In this document: in pieces, positions 2,659 to 29,551 of the stretch
Numbering within the stretch: position 1 is the stretch's first letter
Layout: every line of letters begins with the position of its first letter
DNA from: Haloterrigena gelatinilytica
GTDB lineage: Archaea; Halobacteriota; Halobacteria; Halobacteriales; Natrialbaceae
Assembly (NCBI RefSeq): GCF_013342145.1
Contig: NZ_JABUQZ010000001.1
Coordinates: 3,472,001 to 3,536,000, forward strand
Direction: 5' to 3'
Length of the DNA stretch: 64,000 nt
Made by a program: the position numbers and the translations under genes
Notes under the pieces: generated by a model
What the model saw: only the letters and a program-made list of their open reading frames with translations
Databases searched by the model: none
What the model was told of the DNA's origin: nothing

Positions 2659-3399
2659 TCAGTCGGAGCGACCGACCGTCGCCGTCGCGTCCTCGCACTC
2701 GGCTGCAACGGCGACGTTCTCGGTTCGCACCTCGCGGACGAACTCGAGGAAGTTGTCGAACACTAACTTGGCCTCGCAGGCCGCTTGGTAGTTCTCTTCG
2801 GTGATCTCTTCGAGGACCGACTGCCGGCGGTCGTCGGAGAGATCCTTGCGGTGGACGAGTTCGCGGGCGGTCTTGGCGTCGTACTCGGGGTGGAACTGGA
2901 CGCCGAAGACCCGGTCCTTGCGGAAGCCGTGGTTGGAGTAGTGATTCTCGGCGAGGGGCTCGGCGCCGGGCGGCAGTTCCGAGACCTCGTCGGAGTGGCT
3001 GGTGAAAGCGGTGAACTCCCTGCTGATGTCGTCGAACAGCCGCGATTCGCCGTAGTGTTCGATCTCGCTGTAGCCGACCTCGTAGGCGCCCATGTCCTCG
3101 ACGGTGCCGCCGAGGACGTCCGCCAGCAGCTGGTGGCCCCAACAGACGCCGAGGAACGGCATCCCGCGGTCGATCGCGTCGCCGACCCACTCCTTGATCG
3201 GCCGCATCCACTCGTCGTCCCAGTACACTGACGCTCGCGAGCCCGTGACGACGGCGCCGTCGTAGTCGAACCCGTCCGGAACCTCGCCCTCGGTGGCGTC
3301 GAACTCCGCGAGCGATGCGTCGAGTTCGCGTCGGAAGTTCCGCGTCGTGTTCTCGTCCCGGTGAGCCGCGTTCAGGACGGCAATACGAAGCTGATCCAT
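2659..3399 (-). CDS. Class I glutamine amidotransferase domain protein
   Basis: A 246-residue free-standing class I (triad) glutamine amidotransferase. The nucleophile elbow is seen as GVCWGHQ about residue 88, and the His-Glu end of the triad as VQFHPEYD about residue 170. Such proteins release ammonia from glutamine, or hydrolyse gamma-glutamyl bonds, for an acceptor that is not identifiable here. The start MDQLRIAVLN is chosen at 3399 because homology to the fold begins there; an upstream in-frame ATG at 3459 adds unconserved residues. The neighbours do not suggest a pathway. It could be annotated guaA-like, but it lacks the GMP synthase ATP-pyrophosphatase domain. Confidence 0.85.
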   Translation of the reverse strand: MDQLRIAVLNAAHRDENTTRNFRRELDASLAEFDATEGEVPDGFDYDGAVVTGSRASVYWDDEWMRPIKEWVGDAIDRGMPFLGVCWGHQLLADVLGGTVEDMGAYEVGYSEIEHYGESRLFDDISREFTAFTSHSDEVSELPPGAEPLAENHYSNHGFRKDRVFGVQFHPEYDAKTARELVHRKDLSDDRRQSVLEEITEENYQAACEAKLVFDNFLEFVREVRTENVAVAAECEDATATVGRSD

Positions 3400-3537: not shown

Positions 3538-4803
3538 TCACTGCGGTCGATAGGTGCCGTTCTCGTCGCGTTGGTACCGGTCGCCCGTCTCGAACCAGCC
3601 GTCGGCGAACCGGCCGCGGTCGTCGGACTCGTCGTAGTCGTCGCGTTGCTCCTCGGCCGGGGCGTACCAGTTCTCGTCGTCGGTTCCGGCAGCGCTTACG
3701 TAGCCGTCGGCCACGACCGGCCCGGACAGCTCGAGTCGGCCCTCGGCCGCCCCCTCGAGGACGGTCCCCGACTCGTCGACCAGTCGCGCGCGACAGTCCG
3801 GCACGGGCGTGCCGACGTCGTCCGCAACGGTCGAGGTGTCGCCGGGATCGGCGGCTGCAGCGCCAGCGAACGACTGGGAGAACGCCGTCGGGCACTCGAG
3901 CCGACCCGCCGCGCGCGCGATCGGAATCTCCTGCTCGCGGTAGGCCTCGAGCGTGTCGTCGTCCAGCGCTCCCTCGACGATCACGCGCTCGAGCGAGTCG
4001 ACCGCGTCGTCGAACCCCGACTCGGCGGCGAGGTCTCGAATCGCCGTCTCGCGGCCCGCCAGCAGCGTCGCCTCCTCCTCGGCGATCGCGGTCAGGGTGT
4101 CGCCGGGATCGAACGCCCGGTCGAGCAGCAGGGTCCCGCCGACGTACAGCGTCGACAGCGCGACGCGGACGAGCCCGTCGGGACTCGAGAGCGGCGGCGT
4201 CACCGGGACGACATCGGCGCTCGAGAGCCCCCACGCGACGAGCGCCGAGATGCAGTTCCACTCGAGCGCGGACGCCGAGTAGCCGGCGATCGGTCGACCG
4301 TCAGCGCCGTGAAGGAGCAAGAGCGGAGCGTCGACGTCGGACTCGCGGTCGCGTTCGTCCGGAGCGGGGACGGCGTCTCGGTCGGCCTCGGCGAGTTCCT
4401 CGAGGGTTACCGACCGATCGAACGGAACCGAGCGCACGAGGTCGCGCTGGGCCGCCTCGGAGACGACTAGATCGGGTTCGAGTAGGTCGAACGGCCGCTC
4501 GACGGACGCGGGCGTCAGCCAGTGAGAGACCGGGAAGACGGTGGCACCGAGGCGCCGACAGGCGAACAGGACGGCGAGCGACGCGACGCGATTGCGCGTG
4601 AGGAGACAGACGACATCGCCGGCGTCGATCCCCAGCGCGGAGAGGTGTTCGGCCGTCCGCGTCGCCATCGCCGAGAGTTCGCCGTAGGAGACGCGGTTCT
4701 CGTGGATCGTCTCCGCGGGGGCGTACAGCCGCTCTTCGGAGACGTCGACGACCGCCGTCCGTTCCGGGAACCGTTCGGCCCGCCGCGCCAGCGAGAGTGT
4801 CAC
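3538..4803 (-). CDS. AMP-binding (acyl-CoA synthetase-like) protein, C-terminally short
   Basis: About 421 residues from a GTG start (VTLSLARRAERFPERTAVVD). The N-terminal adenylate-forming fold is clear: VSYGELSAMA near residue 60, the VCLLTRN segment, and WFETGDRY near the end. The phosphate-binding loop is altered: LLLLHGADGRPIAG stands where TSGTTGxPKG is usual. The protein ends just after the TGD motif, so the small C-terminal domain that carries the catalytic lysine is absent. Activity as a CoA ligase is therefore doubtful. An in-frame ATG at 4857 exists, but it reads through sequence with no similarity to the family. The first 33 codons are repeated, with indels, immediately upstream (see 4915-5105). 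Confidence 0.75.
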   Translation of the reverse strand: MTLSLARRAERFPERTAVVDVSEERLYAPAETIHENRVSYGELSAMATRTAEHLSALGIDAGDVVCLLTRNRVASLAVLFACRRLGATVFPVSHWLTPASVERPFDLLEPDLVVSEAAQRDLVRSVPFDRSVTLEELAEADRDAVPAPDERDRESDVDAPLLLLHGADGRPIAGYSASALEWNCISALVAWGLSSADVVPVTPPLSSPDGLVRVALSTLYVGGTLLLDRAFDPGDTLTAIAEEEATLLAGRETAIRDLAAESGFDDAVDSLERVIVEGALDDDTLEAYREQEIPIARAAGRLECPTAFSQSFAGAAAADPGDTSTVADDVGTPVPDCRARLVDESGTVLEGAAEGRLELSGPVVADGYVSAAGTDDENWYAPAEEQRDDYDESDDRGRFADGWFETGDRYQRDENGTYRPQ

Positions 4804-15532: not shown

Positions 15533-18310
15533 TCAGGCGTCCTGAATCTGCCGCAACACGTCGGGCGCGTCCTCGAGCGCCGCGTCGAGATCCTCGACGT
15601 TCGGGCCGCCGCCCTGCGCGAAGTCCGGCGGGCCGCCGCCGCCGCCGCCGACGCGGCCGGCGAGTTCGCCGACGACCTCGCCGGCGTTGACGTCCGAATC
15701 GTCGGGCACCGCGACGACGAACTGGGCGCCGCTCTGGCCGCTGCCGAGGACGGCGATCTTCCCCTCTCCGACGAGAGCGTTCGCGGTCGCGCGGAGCTCG
15801 TCCATGTCGGCGTCGATGCGGTCGACGACCGCGGTCCGGTCACCGACGTCGACCTCCTCGCCGCCGCCACCGCCGCCGGCGCGGGCCGCGGCGAGCTGTT
15901 CCGTCAGGTCTTCGATCTCCTTGCCTCGCGCCTTCCACTCCTCGAAGAAGCGTTCGGCGGTTTCGGGCACGTCCTCGGGCGAGACGTCGAGGACGTCGGC
16001 GGCCTCGTAGAGGGCGTCCTCTTTTTCCTGCGTCGACTCGATCGCGGCCTCGCCGGCCGCGAACGTGATGCGCTCGACGCCGTCCTGGACGCGTTCCGTG
16101 TTCAGGATCTTGATCGAGCCGATGTCGCCGGTGCGGGCGACGTGCGTGCCGCCGCAGGCCTGGATATCGTCGGCGACCTGGATCAGCCGGATCTGCTCGC
16201 CCGGCGGAATCCCGCCCTGGTAGAGGTCGAAGCCGTGTTCGGACTCCGCGTCGTGGCGGTCGGGCCAGTCCTGGGTGACCTGGGTGTTGTCCATCACGAG
16301 CTCGTTGGCCAGCGACTCGATCTCCTTGACGTCCGCGCGGGAGATGCGGTCGTAGTGGCGGACGTCGATCCGCGAGGAGTCGACGCCCTTCTGGGCGCCG
16401 GCCTGGCGGATGTGCTCGCCTAAGACCTGTCGGGCCGCGTGGATGACGATGTGGGTCGCCGTGTGGTGGCGCATGAGTTGGCGCCGGCGGCTGCCGTCGA
16501 TCTGACCGTTGACGAGTTCGCCCTTACCGGGGTCATCGTCGGTCCGGTGGAGGATGACGCCGTCTTCGATCTGGACGTCCTCGACTTCGACGGTCGTGTC
16601 GTCGGTCGAGAGCGTCCCCGTGTCCGAGGGCTGACCGCCGCCCTCGGGGTAGAACATCGTCTGGTCGAGGACGACGTCGTACCCCTCTTCGCGCTCGAAG
16701 ACGTCCAGGACGACCGCCTCGAACTGGGTGCGCTCCTGATCGTCGTAGTAGAGCTTCTCCGTCTCGGGGAGATCCGAGAAGCGCTCGTCCTCGTCCTCCT
16801 CGACCTCCTCGGCGCCCTCGGGGGTGTCGTGGCGCTGGGCGACGAGGCTGTAGAAGTCGTCGGGGACGTCGACGTCGGCGCCGGCCTCTTCGGCGATCTC
16901 CGCGACCATGTCGGGCTGGATACCGTGGGAGTCGTAGAGCTCGATCAGCTCCTCGGTCGGGATCGGCTCGCCCCGCTCCGCGTACTCCTCGGCCAGCGAC
17001 TCGACGCGGCGACCGCCCCGCTCGAGCGTCTCGCGGTACTTCTCGATCTCGGTGCGGACGATGTCGCGGATCGTGTCGCGGTTCTCGTACTCGAGGCGTT
17101 CCGCCTGCATGTCGACGAGTTCGTCCAGCGGCGCGTCGACGCCGGCGTTGTCACAGAGGCGCTTCGTGCGGCGCAGGACCATCCGCGCGAGGTAGCCCGT
17201 CCCGACGTTCGAGGGGACGATGCCGTCGCCGAGCATGTAGGCCAGCGTGCGGCAGTGGTCGGCGATGGCGTAGATGTCCTCGAGGGGCTCGACGAGATCG
17301 CGCAGCTGGTCGACGGAGACGCCGATCTCGGCGGCGATCTCGCCGCGGGCGGCCTCGACGTCGTCGACGTCGTCGATGTCGAGCTGCCCGGAGAGGCGAG
17401 CGGCGCGGGAGACGATCTCGGTCTCCTCGTCGGTGTAGGAGAGGCCGGCGTTGTCCTTGAGGAAGTCGATCATCTCCGGGTAGATCGCCTCGTAGACCGT
17501 CGCGGTGCCCTGACTCATCCAGGTCCACCGTTCGAGGCCGTAGCCGGTGTCGACGATGTAGGTGTCCATGTAGGAGTACCGGTTCCCGTCCTTGAGCTCG
17601 TACTCGCCCTCGGGGTCTTGCTCCATGCACATGAAGACCAGCGTGGCGATCTCGAGCCCGCGGTAGATGACCTCGATGGCGGGGCCGGCGTTGCCGCCGC
17701 CGACCCAGGGATCCTCGATGTAGGTGACCTCGCTGATGTCCGCGCCGAGTTCCTGGAGCAGGCCGTCGCAGAGTTCGACGGTGCGGTCCTTCCAGTAGAC
17801 CTCGCCGTGGTAGGCGTACTTGTCCTCGGGGATGTCCTCGCGCGTGTTGAACGCGTGGTGGGCCATCATCTCGAAGGCCATCGTGTGCCGGCCCGTCTTG
17901 CCGACGTTGTCGATGTCCTGCATCCGGATGCAGGGCTGGGACACCGTCAGCGGGTTCGCCGGCGGCGGCGTCTCGCCGCTGGTGACCAGCGGCTGGAAGT
18001 CGTAGATCGAGGCCTGGGTCAGTAGGACGTCGTCGCGCCACCGGTTGGCGGCGACGGGGTAGGGATCGATCCGCTCGTGGTCGTGGTCTTCGAAGTACGA
18101 GAGGAACACCTCGCGCATCTCCGTCAGGCTGTACTCCTCGTCGAAGCCGGGATTCTCGATGAAGCCGTACTCCTCGCAGGGCGGCTCGCCGCAGGTCTCC
18201 CGGTCGTGGTCGCGGGTCCAGAAGTGCGCGCCACAGGACGGACACTCCTTGCGTTCGAATCCTTCCTCCTCGAAGTACTCGAGGCGGTACTCGTCCGCCA
18301 GTTCGCTCAT
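15533..18310 (-). CDS. alaS: Alanyl-tRNA synthetase
   Basis: 925 residues, the usual size for the archaeal enzyme, which charges tRNA-Ala with alanine. The archaeal N-terminus is present: a zinc-ribbon-like [16 protein letters not shown] at about 20-35 precedes the class II catalytic domain. The editing domain carries HHTATH (near 615) and the zinc-binding CGGTH (near 720), so mischarged Ser and Gly can be cleared. The C-terminal DHHA1-type domain has Gly-rich runs (AGGGGGGEE and VGGGGGG). The start [13 protein letters not shown] is chosen because the archaeal family begins there; an ATG 42 nt upstream adds non-homologous residues. Confidence 0.97.
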
Positions 18311-18482
18311 TACGTATGTGTTGGCCAGCCAGCGCCTAAAACAGTTCCGCAACGTTCAATCGGGCGAAATCGTCGACCGCAACCGAAGCCGTCGCGCCGC
18401 CGCTGCCGGTCTCTTCGATCCACTGTCGTTTCGTTGAAAAGATATATAGTATTCCAATAGGTTCACACGTATAGGAATCGAA

Positions 18483-21795: not shown

Positions 21796-23943
21796 ATGAG
21801 TCCCTCGTCGCAGTTACGCCCGCGGACGGTGGTCTACCTCGCCGAAACCGACGATGCGGCCCGCGACGGCGCGGCCGCCCTCGAGCGCGTCGACTCGGGT
21901 CCGGAGCGCACGGTCCACCCGCTGACGACGGCCGTCGTCGATAGCCTGGCCGACTGGGCGTCCGCGGTCGACTGCGTCGTCTTCGCGGAGACGCCGACGA
22001 CCGCGGCGGGAGCCACGCTGCTCGAGGCCGCCGAGGCCTGCGGGTCGACGCCGCTGGTGCTCTTCACCCGGTCCGCGTACGCGCCGGCGGCCGCGCGGTC
22101 GACCGACGGGATCGACGGCTACGTCCGCCGGGATACCGACGGCGCCGTCGCCCACCTCGCGGACGAGATCGAGTGGGTCTGCGCCGGCGAGCGCGCTGGC
22201 GCGGCGACGGCGCTGCCCGCCGCCGCCGCGGATTCGGGTTCGAACGCGGACGCGGTCGAGACGGGCGATACCGATACCACTGACACGACCGAGACCGCCG
22301 GCGCCGAGCGCCGGCCGGTCGCCGATATCCTCGAGGCGCTCCCCGACGTCGTCGCGTGCGAGGAGCGCGACCGACTCTTCGAGCGCCTGGTCGCGACCGC
22401 CGCCGACGCCGTCGGGACCGAGTGCGGCTGGCTGTCGACGGTCCACTTCGGCGAGTTGACGCCGCGGGCGACCACCGACGCGGTCGCGGCCGAGGACCTC
22501 GCCTCGATGCCCCGCGAGGGACCTCTCGACGAGGCACTCCGGAGCGGCGAGCCGATTCGGATCGACGACCTCGCGGCCGACGGGCGTCCGGAGCCGCCCC
22601 TCGAGGGGACGGAATCGCTGTGCTGTGCGCCGGTCGGCGACGTCGGCCTCCTCCTGCTCGCCGCCGCGGAACCGGCGGCGTTCGACGGCCGGGATCGCGA
22701 CCTCCTCGCCGCGTGGGCGCGGGTCGGAGCCGCCGTCCTCGAGCGCGTCGAGACGGAAGCGGGCCTGCGGACAGATCGCGATCGGCTGCGCGGGGAACTG
22801 GACCGAGCCACCGAGGCTCGAGACCGACTCGAAGCGGAACGCGACGATCTGGCGGCCGAACGCGATCGGCTCGCCGCGGAGCGCGACCGCGCCCGAGCGC
22901 TGTTCGCGACCGTCCCGGATCCGGCGGTCCACTACGAGATCGACGGCGGCCGGCCGGTCGTCCGGGACGTCAACGACGCCTTTTCCGACGTCTTCGGCGC
23001 CGAACCGGCGGCGATCGTCGACGAGCCGCTGGACGCGGCTCCCCTCCCGCCGGGACTCGAGCACCGGCGGGCGACGCTGACCGAGGCGCTCCGGGCCGGT
23101 CGACGCCGGCAGCTGGTCAGCCGGCGCGAGACCGTCGACGGCGTCCGCGAGTTCCGGCTGACGGTGGTCCCCCTCGAGGCGGCCGACGGCGACGGCTCGG
23201 ACGGGTCGGAGCCGGCCGGCGAAATCACCAATCCCGAGGGATTGGTCGTCTACGGCGACGTCACCGACGCGAACCGGACGGAGCGGGAACTGGCGGCCGC
23301 CGAGGGGCGCCTCGAGGCGATCGCGGAGAGCCTCGAGACGGACGTTCGAACGCCGCTGAACGTCGCCCGCGGCTATCTCGAACTCGTCGAGGAGACCCGC
23401 GACGCGGAGCACTTCGCCGAGGTCGAGACGGCCCAGGAACGGCTCCGCGAACGCGTCGCGGAACTGCTCGCGATCGCCCGCCGGGACGAGGTGGCCGTCG
23501 AGACCGAACCCGTCGCCGTCACCGACGTCGCGCGTCGGGCCTGGGTCGCCGTCGACACCGGCGACGCGCGGCTCGTGACCCGCGAGGATCGCGTCCTCAA
23601 GGCCGACAAGGCGCAGCTACGGGAGCTGTTCGAACACCTGTTGCAGGCTGCGGTCGAGAGCGTCGCCGAGGGAAGCGACGACGACGCGCCGGTCGTCACC
23701 GTCGGGGCGACCGACGACGGGTTCGCCGTGACCGGCCATCCCGCGGGGACCGACGTGACGTCCGCCGGATGGGAGACGACCCCCGTTCCGGGTCGGTTGG
23801 CCGCCGCCGACGGCACCGGGTTCGGGCTCGGGCCGGTCGAGCGGATCGCCGACGCCCACGGCTGGGACGTCGGCGTCGCCACCGACGAGGGAGCCACCTT
23901 CGCGTTTCGCGGGATCGGCCCGGCCGACGTGAGTCGCGACTGA
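21796..23943 (+). CDS. Receiver-GAF-PAS-histidine-kinase-like protein with degenerate kinase core
   Basis: 715 residues. Receiver-like domain at about 8-125, but with DCVVFAETP where a phosphoacceptor Asp would be. GAF domain at about 175-325, a coiled coil at about 326-372 (repeated DRLxAERD), a PAS domain at about 375-490, then a HisKA/HATPase-like region. In the H-box the usual HDLRxPL reads TDVRTPL, with Thr515 in place of the phosphorylated His. In the N-box the key Asn is Ala618, and the G1 box is not recognisable; only GTGFGLG of the G2 box is kept. The protein is thus probably a pseudokinase that senses through GAF/PAS and regulates a partner. It stands alone, with no response regulator nearby. 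Confidence 0.8.
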   Translation: MSPSSQLRPRTVVYLAETDDAARDGAAALERVDSGPERTVHPLTTAVVDSLADWASAVDCVVFAETPTTAAGATLLEAAEACGSTPLVLFTRSAYAPAAARSTDGIDGYVRRDTDGAVAHLADEIEWVCAGERAGAATALPAAAADSGSNADAVETGDTDTTDTTETAGAERRPVADILEALPDVVACEERDRLFERLVATAADAVGTECGWLSTVHFGELTPRATTDAVAAEDLASMPREGPLDEALRSGEPIRIDDLAADGRPEPPLEGTESLCCAPVGDVGLLLLAAAEPAAFDGRDRDLLAAWARVGAAVLERVETEAGLRTDRDRLRGELDRATEARDRLEAERDDLAAERDRLAAERDRARALFATVPDPAVHYEIDGGRPVVRDVNDAFSDVFGAEPAAIVDEPLDAAPLPPGLEHRRATLTEALRAGRRRQLVSRRETVDGVREFRLTVVPLEAADGDGSDGSEPAGEITNPEGLVVYGDVTDANRTERELAAAEGRLEAIAESLETDVRTPLNVARGYLELVEETRDAEHFAEVETAQERLRERVAELLAIARRDEVAVETEPVAVTDVARRAWVAVDTGDARLVTREDRVLKADKAQLRELFEHLLQAAVESVAEGSDDDAPVVTVGATDDGFAVTGHPAGTDVTSAGWETTPVPGRLAAADGTGFGLGPVERIADAHGWDVGVATDEGATFAFRGIGPADVSRD

Positions 23944-24248
23944 GACGGACACTTCCGTCGCCGTAAAAAAGCGTACTTCGGACGGCGTGTTACAACCTCG
24001 AGTCGAAACGAAGGGCAGATGGCGAAGGCGGACCGGTCAGGCGTCGTCCTCGAGGGCCAGCGCCGCCAGCAGCGCCTCGAGTTGCAGCCGTTCGTTCGCG
24101 CCCTCGGTGATCCGGTAGTCGACCTCGCCGAGTCGCTCGAGCAGGCGCACGGTCGCCGTCTCGGGGATGTCGAACTCCCAGGCCGAGCGGTGCAGTTGGT
24201 CGATGACGTCGCCGCCGGCGAGCCCGCGCTCGGTCAGCAGGTCCTCCA

Positions 24249-24580
24249 GGGCGGCGCGGGCGGCGGTGAAGTCGCCGTCGATGGCGTGTTCGACCATCTC
24301 CTCGACCTCCTCGGGGCGCGCGGTGGCGGTGATCGCGAAGACGGTCTCCTCGTCGACGGTCTCGCCCATCACGGCCGCGGCCTGGAGGCCGTTGATCGCC
24401 TTTCGCATGTCGCCGTCGGCCGCGTAGACCAGGGCGTCGACGCCGTCGTCGGTGACCTCGATCCCCTCGTTTTCGGCGATTTCGCGGACCTGGGCCTCGA
24501 TGGCGTCCTCGGTGAGTTCGGTAAAGCGGAAGACCGCACACCGGGACTGGATGGGGTCGATGATCTGACTCGAGTAGTTA
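24249..24580. repeat. Tandem duplication in rfcS, intact copy (332 bp)
   Basis: This copy encodes the RfcS lid/collar region in frame and continues into the normal C-terminus. The same segment recurs at 24582-24902 with one base between them. Confidence 0.9.
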
Positions 24581-24581
24581 C

Positions 24582-24902
24582 GGGCGGCGCGGGCGGCGGT
24601 GAAGTCGCCGTCGATGGCGTGTTCGACCATCTCCTCGACCTCCTCGGGCGCGGTGGCGGTGATCGCGAAGACGGTCTCCTCGTCGACGGTCTCGCCATCA
24701 CGGCCGCGGCCTGGAGGCCGTTGATCGCATGTCGCCGTCGGCCGCGTAGACCAGGGCGTCGTCGCCGTCGTCGGTGACCTCTGATCCCCTGTTTTCGGCG
24801 ATTTCGCGGACCTGGGCCTCGATGGCGTCCTCGGTGAGTTCGGTAAAGCGGAAGACCGCACACCGGGACTGGATGGGGTCGATGATCTGACTCGAGTAGT
24901 TA
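24582..24902. repeat. Tandem duplication in rfcS, degraded copy (321 bp)
   Basis: Matches 24249-24580 except for a 3-bp deletion, a 1-bp deletion, a 7-bp deletion (CTTTCGC region), one substitution, one inserted T and one lost C. These changes shift the frame. The error pattern is like that of the 4915-5105 copy. Confidence 0.9.
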
Positions 24903-25506
24903 CACGAGAGGATGAAGCGCGTGTTGTTCGAGAACTGCTCCATCGTCCGACGCAGCGCGGACTGGGCGTCGGAGGTCAGCGCGTCGGCCTCGTCCAGGAA
25001 GATGATGCGGTGATCGTAGCCGCCGAACGAAGAGCGCGCGAAGTCCTTGATCCGGTCGCGGACGACGTCGATTCCGCGCTGGTCGGAGGCGTTGAGTTCG
25101 AGGAAGTTCTCGCGCCAGTCGTCGCCGTAGATTTCGCGCGCGACGGCCTGTGACGCCGTGGTTTTCCCCGTTCCGGCCGGCCCCGCAAACATGAGGTGGG
25201 GGAGGTCGTCCTGCTCGACGTAGCGTTGCAGCCGCGGGATGATGTTCTCGTGGCCCTTGATCTCGTCGAGCCGTTCCGGCCGGTACTTCTCGATCCAGAC
25301 TTCGGTCCTGCCGGGTGTCGGCTCCGCCGCCTCGGCGTCGGCCTCGCTCATACCGCTCGCAAGGTGCGGCCGGAAGGTGAATCTTGCCTTGTCCGCGTCG
25401 GCCCGGTGGTCCCCCGGCCGCCGGCAGGGAATCACGACGGGGAGACAGTCCGACGTACTGACCGTTGCGTAGGGTATTTTTCTCGAGACTCGTCGTACGA
25501 TCCTGT

Positions 25507-28596: not shown

Positions 28597-29235
28597 TCAC
28601 TCCTCGCGGAGCGTCGACGCCACGAGTCGCCCGGTTCCGCGGCGGATGCGCCCGCTGACGGCCGTCGACGAGATGCCGAGCCGTTCGGCGAGTTCCTCGA
28701 GCGAGATTTCCCGCGGTTCCTCGAAGTAGCCCTCCTCGTGGGCGCGGACCAGCGCGGTGCGCTGTTCGTCGGTTACCTCCGGGAACGTCTCGCCGGTCCA
28801 CTCGTCGCGCCGAAACATCCGGCGCAGTTCGAACGAGATGTCCCGCGTCTCACAGCAGTCCCAGAGGTCGGCGAGCGCTTCCCGGTCGGGAAGCTGAACG
28901 CGGGTCGTCCAGCCCCGCCCGGTGGTCTCCGCGTTCAACAGCAGTCCGCCGAGTTCGGTCGTCAACGGCGAGATGAGGACGGCCTCATCGGGGTGCTGGA
29001 GCCGATAGATTCGCGCCGAACCGAGATTGTCCGCGAGCATCCAGTCCGTCACCGTGTGGTCTCGCTCGAGGGCGTCCTCGAACGCCTCGTCGGCGCCCTC
29101 GACGAGGTAGAAGAACAGTCCGGTCTCCGGGTCCGTCGTGGAGTGGGGGACGACCTCGATGGACGCGTCCGGACGGTCTCGGATCGTCGGTGTCAGCGCG
29201 AGATCCGGATGCGCGATATCGAGAATTGCGATCAT
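28597..29235 (-). CDS. Bacterio-opsin activator (Bat/HTH-10) family transcriptional regulator
   Basis: 212 residues. An N-terminal sensor-like domain is followed by a C-terminal HTH-10 helix-turn-helix (LTDEQRTALVRAHEEGYFEEP style, then SLEELAERLGISSTAVSGR, about residues 160-205), the standard layout of haloarchaeal Bat-like regulators. These bind upstream DNA to activate target genes. It lies on the same strand just upstream of the FAD oxidase gene and may regulate it; this is inferred from position. Start MIAILDIAHPDLAL at 29235. Confidence 0.85.
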   Translation of the reverse strand: MIAILDIAHPDLALTPTIRDRPDASIEVVPHSTTDPETGLFFYLVEGADEAFEDALERDHTVTDWMLADNLGSARIYRLQHPDEAVLISPLTTELGGLLLNAETTGRGWTTRVQLPDREALADLWDCCETRDISFELRRMFRRDEWTGETFPEVTDEQRTALVRAHEEGYFEEPREISLEELAERLGISSTAVSGRIRRGTGRLVASTLREE

Positions 29236-29551
29236 GCTCACGGTTCGTCACGGCGGCGACTGTTGTGCGGTATATTCGTTCCGAAACAACCACCTGTATG
29301 AGATATCGTCACCAGATTAGTTATTCTGATCCCGATATTAGTTGTCATTTGAGCACGTATTCCGGTTATAACTACTTAATTGTTGCTCCAGGTCCGAAAA
29401 GAGTGTGTGACCCGAACTACGTTCATCGCGGGTCCGTATGCGCGCGCTACGGTCGGGGAACGGTTCGATCGCGTTCGGACAGCGGCGCCGGCGGTGCCCG
29501 CCTGACTGCTGAAAGCCGAGTCACTTTCCCGGCCGCCGCGGTACGCCACGT
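29236..29551. other. Divergent intergenic region with AT-rich promoter stretch
   Basis: About 316 bp. The section 29300-29395 is AT-rich (TTAGTTATTCTGATCCC, TTATAACTACTTAATTG) and probably holds promoter elements for the divergent regulator and redoxin genes. No reading frame or RNA gene seen. Confidence 0.4.

Follow-up and report, generated by a model that had tools for sequence, protein, structure and literature searches.

We analysed 64,000 nucleotides of the Haloterrigena gelatinilytica genome (contig NZ_JABUQZ010000001.1, positions 3,472,001 to 3,536,000), referred to here as the window, in which one gene encodes a protein that is built like a sensor histidine kinase and has other residues at the places of the catalytic ones. 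An earlier note, drawn from the sequence alone, had read this protein as a sensory pseudokinase that has lost its H-box, its N-box and its receiver Asp and that may act through protein contact. We find that it belongs to a conserved family of archaeal pseudo-histidine kinases. The gene and its parts are as follows, by position in the window.

21796..23943, plus strand: coding sequence of the pseudo-histidine kinase, 715 amino acids (open frame; nonsynonymous to synonymous rate ratio, omega, below 1)
21817..22188, plus strand: N-terminal pseudo-receiver, residues 8-131 (AlphaFold2 fold and structure matches)
21985..21987, plus strand: codon of Ala64, the putative phospho-Asp position of the receiver (where strand 3 of the model ends; Ala in 71 of the 86 family members described below)
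22300..22749, plus strand: GAF domain, residues 169-318 (PF13185; matches to GAF structures with Z up to 19.6)
22750..22893, plus strand: coiled-coil signalling helix, residues 319-366, within model helix 298-371 (AlphaFold2 model)
22894..23262, plus strand: PAS domain and linker, residues 367-489 (PF13188; model)
23263..23496, plus strand: DHp (HisKA) dimerisation helices, residues 490-567 (PF00512; model helices 490-534 and 537-566)
23338..23340, plus strand: codon of Thr515, at the place of the phospho-His (family alignment; profile alignment to solved kinases)
23497..23919, plus strand: degenerate HATPase (CA) domain, residues 568-708 (PF02518 below cut-off)
23647..23649, plus strand: codon of Ala618, at the place of the N-box Asn (Asn in all 11 intact orthologs and in none of the 67 main-clade rows)
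23716..23760, plus strand: residues 641-655, in which DGF is kept and the D-box/G1 (DDGxGI in intact members) is lost
23809..23829, plus strand: G2-box remnant DGTGFGL, residues 672-678 (Gly at column 675 in 44 of the 67 main-clade rows)

Pfam recognises both sensory domains (GAF_2 at 40.3 bits; PAS_8 at 23.6 bits, with a cut-off of 21.8). HisKA barely passes its cut-off (28.0 against 26.9 bits) with a match that starts at residue 516, directly past the place of the phospho-His, HATPase_c is found only below threshold (15.0 against 26.4 bits), and the receiver domain has no Pfam match. An AlphaFold2 model of the whole protein, built with 35 sequences (mean predicted local distance difference test score, pLDDT, 82.1; predicted template modelling score, pTM, 0.43), is sound for the individual domains and not for their arrangement; along the chain it predicts a receiver-like domain, a GAF domain, a long helix (residues 298-371), a PAS domain, the DHp hairpin (490-566) and a HATPase-like end. 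The presence of the DHp helical hairpin is supported by both the PF00512 match and the model helices, and the GAF domain, PAS domain and coiled coil that the earlier note had described as retained are indeed there, the first two as Pfam matches and the third as the long helix of the model.

Because the structure matches of the whole model were all taken up by GAF domains, the receiver was folded separately. The first 134 residues alone are predicted to adopt a receiver-type fold (mean pLDDT 88.7), with 3jte as the best match in the Protein Data Bank (PDB; Z 13.3, root-mean-square deviation 2.6, 118 residues aligned), and nearly all of the 50 PDB matches listed for this domain are receivers, with Z between 11.8 and 13.3. 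Strand 3 of the model ends at residue 63, which would place the phospho-Asp site at Ala64. The model and the motif DCVVFA together suggest that Ala64 stands where the phospho-Asp would be, and that the N-terminal domain is a pseudo-receiver, having a predicted receiver fold and no phospho-Asp.

Catalytic residues across the family

Searches of 125 Natrialbaceae genomes with the protein and, in a second search, with the pseudo-receiver, supplemented by fetched loci, yielded 86 usable members; of the 85 genomes that carry them, 84 belong to the same family and one to a different family of the order. The relatives' records include Haloterrigena and Natribaculum, both Natrialbaceae according to NCBI. 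A pseudo-receiver match is present in 90 of the 125 genomes. The members divide into a main His-less clade of 67, a group of 11 that bear the His, and 8 others. Set apart from the 86 were a copy with a broken frame (L099, in genome G047), remnants in G024 and G065 (L188 and L189), weak pseudo-receiver matches in G001 and G004, a match in G081, and second copies in G037, G039 and G040.

The replacements reported in the earlier note are borne out by this family. Column 515, Thr in the window protein, is His in all 11 His-bearing orthologs; column 618, Ala in the window protein, is Asn in the same 11; and the D-box columns 647-648, here Gly-His, are Asp-Asp in every one of them. Conservation of the altered state among orthologs, which the note had named as a check, is also found: the His is absent from 75 of the 86 members, and an acid takes its place in 58 (the full column reads Asp 37, Glu 21, His 11, Gly 6, Thr 3, Ala 3, Ser 2, Arg 1, Gln 1 and one gap). 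Throughout the main clade this place holds Asp, Glu, Thr, Ala, Ser, Gly or a gap (67/67). The N-box place is never Asn in these rows (Ala 27, Thr 17, Leu 11, Val 5, Ser 4, gap 3), although three of the 67 lack the Asn because the domain itself is absent, and the D-box aspartates are lost. We considered misalignment and rejected it, since a profile alignment with HK853-type and other solved kinases places their His opposite the acid of the family, the flanking R-x-P-L lines up, and the intact orthologs align around the box. Thirty loci were fetched for the 45 kinase matches of the same genome, and all 29 other kinase loci examined keep the His, so Thr515 represents more than chance. Among sampled HisKA domains, 0.9% (722 of 76,471) lack the His (PMC12632262; here and below, statements from cited papers rest on excerpts of those sources).

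A hydroxyl residue at position 515 of the window protein, together with the tyrosine kinase title of the DivL structure entry 4q20, might point to a kinase of an unusual kind, with Thr515 or some other residue as its phosphorylation site. However, Thr or Ser occupies this column in only five of the 67 main-clade members, whereas Asp or Glu is found in 57, and both the N-box Asn and the D-box are gone, which makes this account extremely improbable. Judged by its sequence, the protein does not classify as an active HisKA sensor histidine kinase, as it has no phospho-His, no N-box Asn and no D-box/G1; it instead fits a pseudo-histidine kinase, with descent from kinases, a catalytic residue lost across orthologs, and a gene that has been retained.

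The His-less members vary considerably in length, from 385 to 861 amino acids. One of them (L187) consists of the pseudo-receiver, the DHp and a HATPase remnant only, and four aligned members have no HATPase, L055, L058 and L059 ending after the DHp and L184 also lacking the CA domain, so that ATP binding cannot be needed in those members. The pseudo-receiver and the DHp are the parts common to a member set that was picked by similarity to the window protein. The N-terminal motif FAETPTT is present in 61 of the 86 members, and most members of either kind have it (48 of the 67 in the main clade, 6 of the 11 intact ones). As a separate observation, four members of one genus (L082, L089, L091 and L092, genus g13) carry a long low-complexity insert at the ATP-lid region of the degenerate HATPase.

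Descent and locus

Trees were calculated in two versions. The careful one comprises 64 rows with the motif columns excluded, 29 of 93 rows having been left out (L184, L195, the paralog L007, the three rows without a HATPase, two further paralogs, and near duplicates); in this tree all 51 His-less rows form one clade (98/88) nested in His-bearing rows, with a single change of state. A quick tree of all 93 rows has three changes of His state, by way of the long-branched L184 and L195 and of L007. The single loss thus depends on omitting L184 and L195, and we conclude that the His was probably lost once in the main line and that a second loss is possible. L195, which comes from a genome of another family of the order (G126), has Gly at the His place and keeps both the N-box Asn and the HATPase, and may represent an independent loss. 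The order of events is suggested by L185, which lies on the same contig as L169 (Natronobiforma), a locus with HATPase_c at 64.3 bits. L185 has Arg for the His and keeps the N-box, D-box and G2, and its intact ATPase motifs in the absence of the His suggest that the His was lost first and the ATP site later, with a place for L185 in the tree that is weakly supported (90/47).

The earlier note had held that orthologs with intact H and N boxes would indicate local decay or misalignment. Eleven such orthologs exist, among them that of Natribaculum breve (L170), but they fall outside the His-less clade, and by their position in the tree they mark the ancestral state rather than local decay; as the main account, local decay is also rejected on the omega values and the clade-wide conservation of columns described below. 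A different correction applies to the receiver. Its Asp is absent, as the note had stated, but not through the same event as the kinase boxes, because Ala64 is already present in 9 of the 11 kinase-intact members; we therefore discarded the idea that the receiver Asp was lost together with the kinase motifs.

The gene occupies a slot between two flanking genes:

15533..18352, minus strand: alaS, a locus marker (cluster C1 in 39 of 41 neighbourhoods; PF01411)
24040..25435, minus strand: rfcA, convergent, likewise a locus marker, two open reading frames (ORFs) in this assembly (cluster C2, found in 36 of the 41; the ORF for the N-terminal part matches AAA)

The 41 neighbourhoods that were clustered are the window and 40 chosen loci. 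Eight neighbourhoods that keep the His (L117, L119, L122-L126 and L138) are also flanked by alaS and rfcA, and this shared slot indicates that the His-bearing and His-less kinds are the same gene and not paralogs. The other recurring neighbours are metabolic, transport and unknown genes. A BAT/HTH_10 regulator gene lies about 4.7 kb downstream of the pseudokinase (window 28600-29241, minus strand), in a cluster present in 5 of the 41 neighbourhoods, and cluster C22 is found in five neighbourhoods, all with His-bearing members, where the called frame looks spurious. The family is present twice in each of four genomes of genus g12 (G037-G040). Of the pair in G040 (L109 and L110), the long copy adjoins alaS, and the other, which ends after the DHp and has no HATPase, adjoins rfcA. 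Within rfcA, which is an essential gene, window positions 24249-24903 hold a tandem duplication of about 330 bases with blocks 93-100% identical, and frame breaks split the gene into its two ORFs; the pattern suggests either an error of assembly or a duplication of very recent date.

Retention and proposed function

Nei-Gojobori counts were made for 23 close pairs, 18 of pseudokinases and 5 of intact members. Whole-gene omega lies between 0.13 and 0.57 in all 18 pseudokinase pairs, compared with 0.16 to 0.44 in the five intact pairs; for the CA domain it spans 0.03 to 0.80 across the 18, and one DHp value of 3.29 rests on a synonymous divergence (dS) of 0.02. A long open frame without the His is present in 74 genomes. 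In the main clade, DHp and CA columns L521, A524, W583, E613, G642, F643 and W690 are at or near 100%, and certain columns are kept more strictly in the dead clade than in the intact members (for example G706, 0.97 against 0.45).

On balance, we consider it probable that this conserved family of archaeal pseudo-histidine kinases acts by protein contact through its pseudo-receiver and DHp dimer, as DivL does; the family is real and conserved, and its mechanism we infer. Comparison across the family shows descent from a GAF-PAS histidine kinase that was active and lay in the alaS-rfcA slot in Natrialbaceae; the phospho-His was lost, probably a single time in the main line, and the ATP-binding motifs apparently after it, while purifying selection on the gene continued. 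A cytoplasmic signal would be sensed by the GAF and PAS domains and relayed along the coil to the dimer of DHp helices. Two parts that are not expected to carry phosphate, the face of the DHp and the pseudo-receiver at the N-terminus, would then bind and tune a partner, perhaps an active histidine kinase or a response regulator, much as DivL does, or a pseudokinase that forms heterodimers. DHp residues 523, 526 and 530, which we matched, counting from H260, to interface residues of HK853 that PDB titles name, are Val in 58, Gly in 53 and Leu in 57 of the 67 main-clade members, the commonest letters of the intact orthologs.

Several observations weigh against this proposal. The conserved DHp letters are also common in the active kinases of the same genome and so do not single out partner binding. 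Our analysis found no partner, signal or phenotype for the pseudokinase, and Pfam detected no receiver or kinase gene among the 16 neighbouring or recurring genes scanned, 4 of which have no match of any kind and one of which is the BAT/HTH_10 regulator. A D/E-x-x-T/N phosphatase motif is present in the window protein and in 36 of the 67 main-clade members, which makes a catalytic role conceivable. Mean conservation is lower than in the 11 intact members, in the DHp (0.68 against 0.82) as in the CA domain (0.66 against 0.74). Moreover, 35 of the 125 family genomes have no pseudo-receiver match, and N-terminal remnants lie at the same locus in a congener (L188 in G024, at 3103-3360) and in G065 (L189, at 3883-4050), the congener having only the start of the gene left, with a match to residues 1-93, between asparaginase and rfcA. 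The remnants and the genomes without a match imply that the gene is dispensable to the lineage, and the sequences thus point to a pseudokinase that is maintained where it is present.

The same remnants, along with the frame-broken copy in G047, the disappearance of the whole HATPase from some members, the lowered conservation of DHp and CA, and the highest of the domain-level omega values, would also be in keeping with a decaying relic without function. We regard this as quite improbable, given that the long His-less frame persists in 74 genomes, that whole-gene omega stays low in 18 of 18 pairs, that several DHp and CA columns are close to invariant, and that FAETPTT is present in 48 of the 67 main-clade members.

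The main rival of contact signalling is a kinase-dead, dedicated phosphatase, in which a DHp that keeps D516-x-x-T519 would dephosphorylate a response regulator in the absence of kinase activity. An acid at H+1 is found in 65 of the 67 main-clade members, and in 36 it is accompanied by Thr or Asn at H+4 (43 with Ser and Gln counted); the window protein has both D516 and T519, and the conserved His is reported not to be essential for HisKA phosphatase activity (PMC12632262). However, the clade does not keep the motif throughout, as H+4 is Pro in 11 of the 67 and something else, such as Arg, Gly or Glu, in further members. The same source also gives the His a part in the HisKA reaction and argues against phosphatase activity as a general role of pseudo-histidine kinases. 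A phosphatase therefore seems rather unlikely to us. Similarly doubtful is a more specific form of contact signalling, in which pseudo-receiver and pseudo-DHp would form, within a single polypeptide, a two-component pair that works without phosphate. Kept together while the GAF, PAS and HATPase domains vary between lineages, they would serve as a sensory decoy that docks on active kinases and regulators of haloarchaea, at the DHp or the receiver.

Related systems and significance

To our knowledge, DivL is one of the few pseudo-histidine kinases whose action has been worked out. Its structure (4q20) is among the PDB matches of the window protein, at rank 23 by fold and with 3e-6 by profile. 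DivL of Caulobacter crescentus has Tyr in place of the His, can do without its CA domain, and binds DivK~P through the kinase region (PMC4211667). Like the haloarchaeal family, DivL is a PAS-bearing protein of HisKA fold in which the phospho-His is replaced across orthologs (PMC4211667). DivL acts by binding a response regulator (PMC4211667), and the haloarchaeal family may do likewise. DivL differs in that it keeps its N, G1, F and G2 boxes (PMC4211667), whereas the haloarchaeal family has lost the N-box Asn and the D-box, and the latter is archaeal and has a GAF domain and an N-terminal pseudo-receiver.

Other non-catalytic relatives offer partial parallels. The ChrS pseudokinase of Corynebacterium glutamicum is non-catalytic and forms heterodimers with the active kinase HrrS (PMC9491836); in contrast to the old and conserved haloarchaeal family, this CA-frameshift form arose in laboratory evolution (PMC9491836). 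Archaeal nonenzymatic histidine kinase-like proteins that have HisKA and no HATPase are likewise sensor-HisKA proteins without kinase activity (PMC5847659), but the haloarchaeal family has lost the His and most of its aligned members keep a degenerate HATPase. MsmS and RdmS (MA_type 2) of Methanosarcina acetivorans are archaeal and have no H-box, and RdmS is without autokinase activity (PMC11784639); these proteins bind and hydrolyse ATP (PMC11784639), whereas ATP binding by the haloarchaeal family would not be expected, given the loss of the N-box Asn and the D-box. Pseudo-receiver domains elsewhere share the receiver fold without the phospho-Asp (PMC12632262), but the haloarchaeal one is lineage-specific, has the FAETPTT loop, is joined to a kinase module and has no Pfam match. 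Among open-licence papers, the titles and abstract beginnings of the matches listed included none on this pseudokinase family.

The roles of pseudo-histidine kinases are largely open, and a single archaeal locus here holds a whole series of states, from intact kinases through one form that has lost the His and kept the ATPase motifs to members that are fully degenerate or have no HATPase. This series makes the order of loss, and the part that carries the function, directly testable. It also serves as a warning that a whole clade would be misannotated if its members were labelled histidine kinases. A sensor built like a histidine kinase and apparently unable to phosphorylate has been retained by many related species of salt-loving archaea, and since so many species keep the dead enzyme, it probably signals by binding other proteins.
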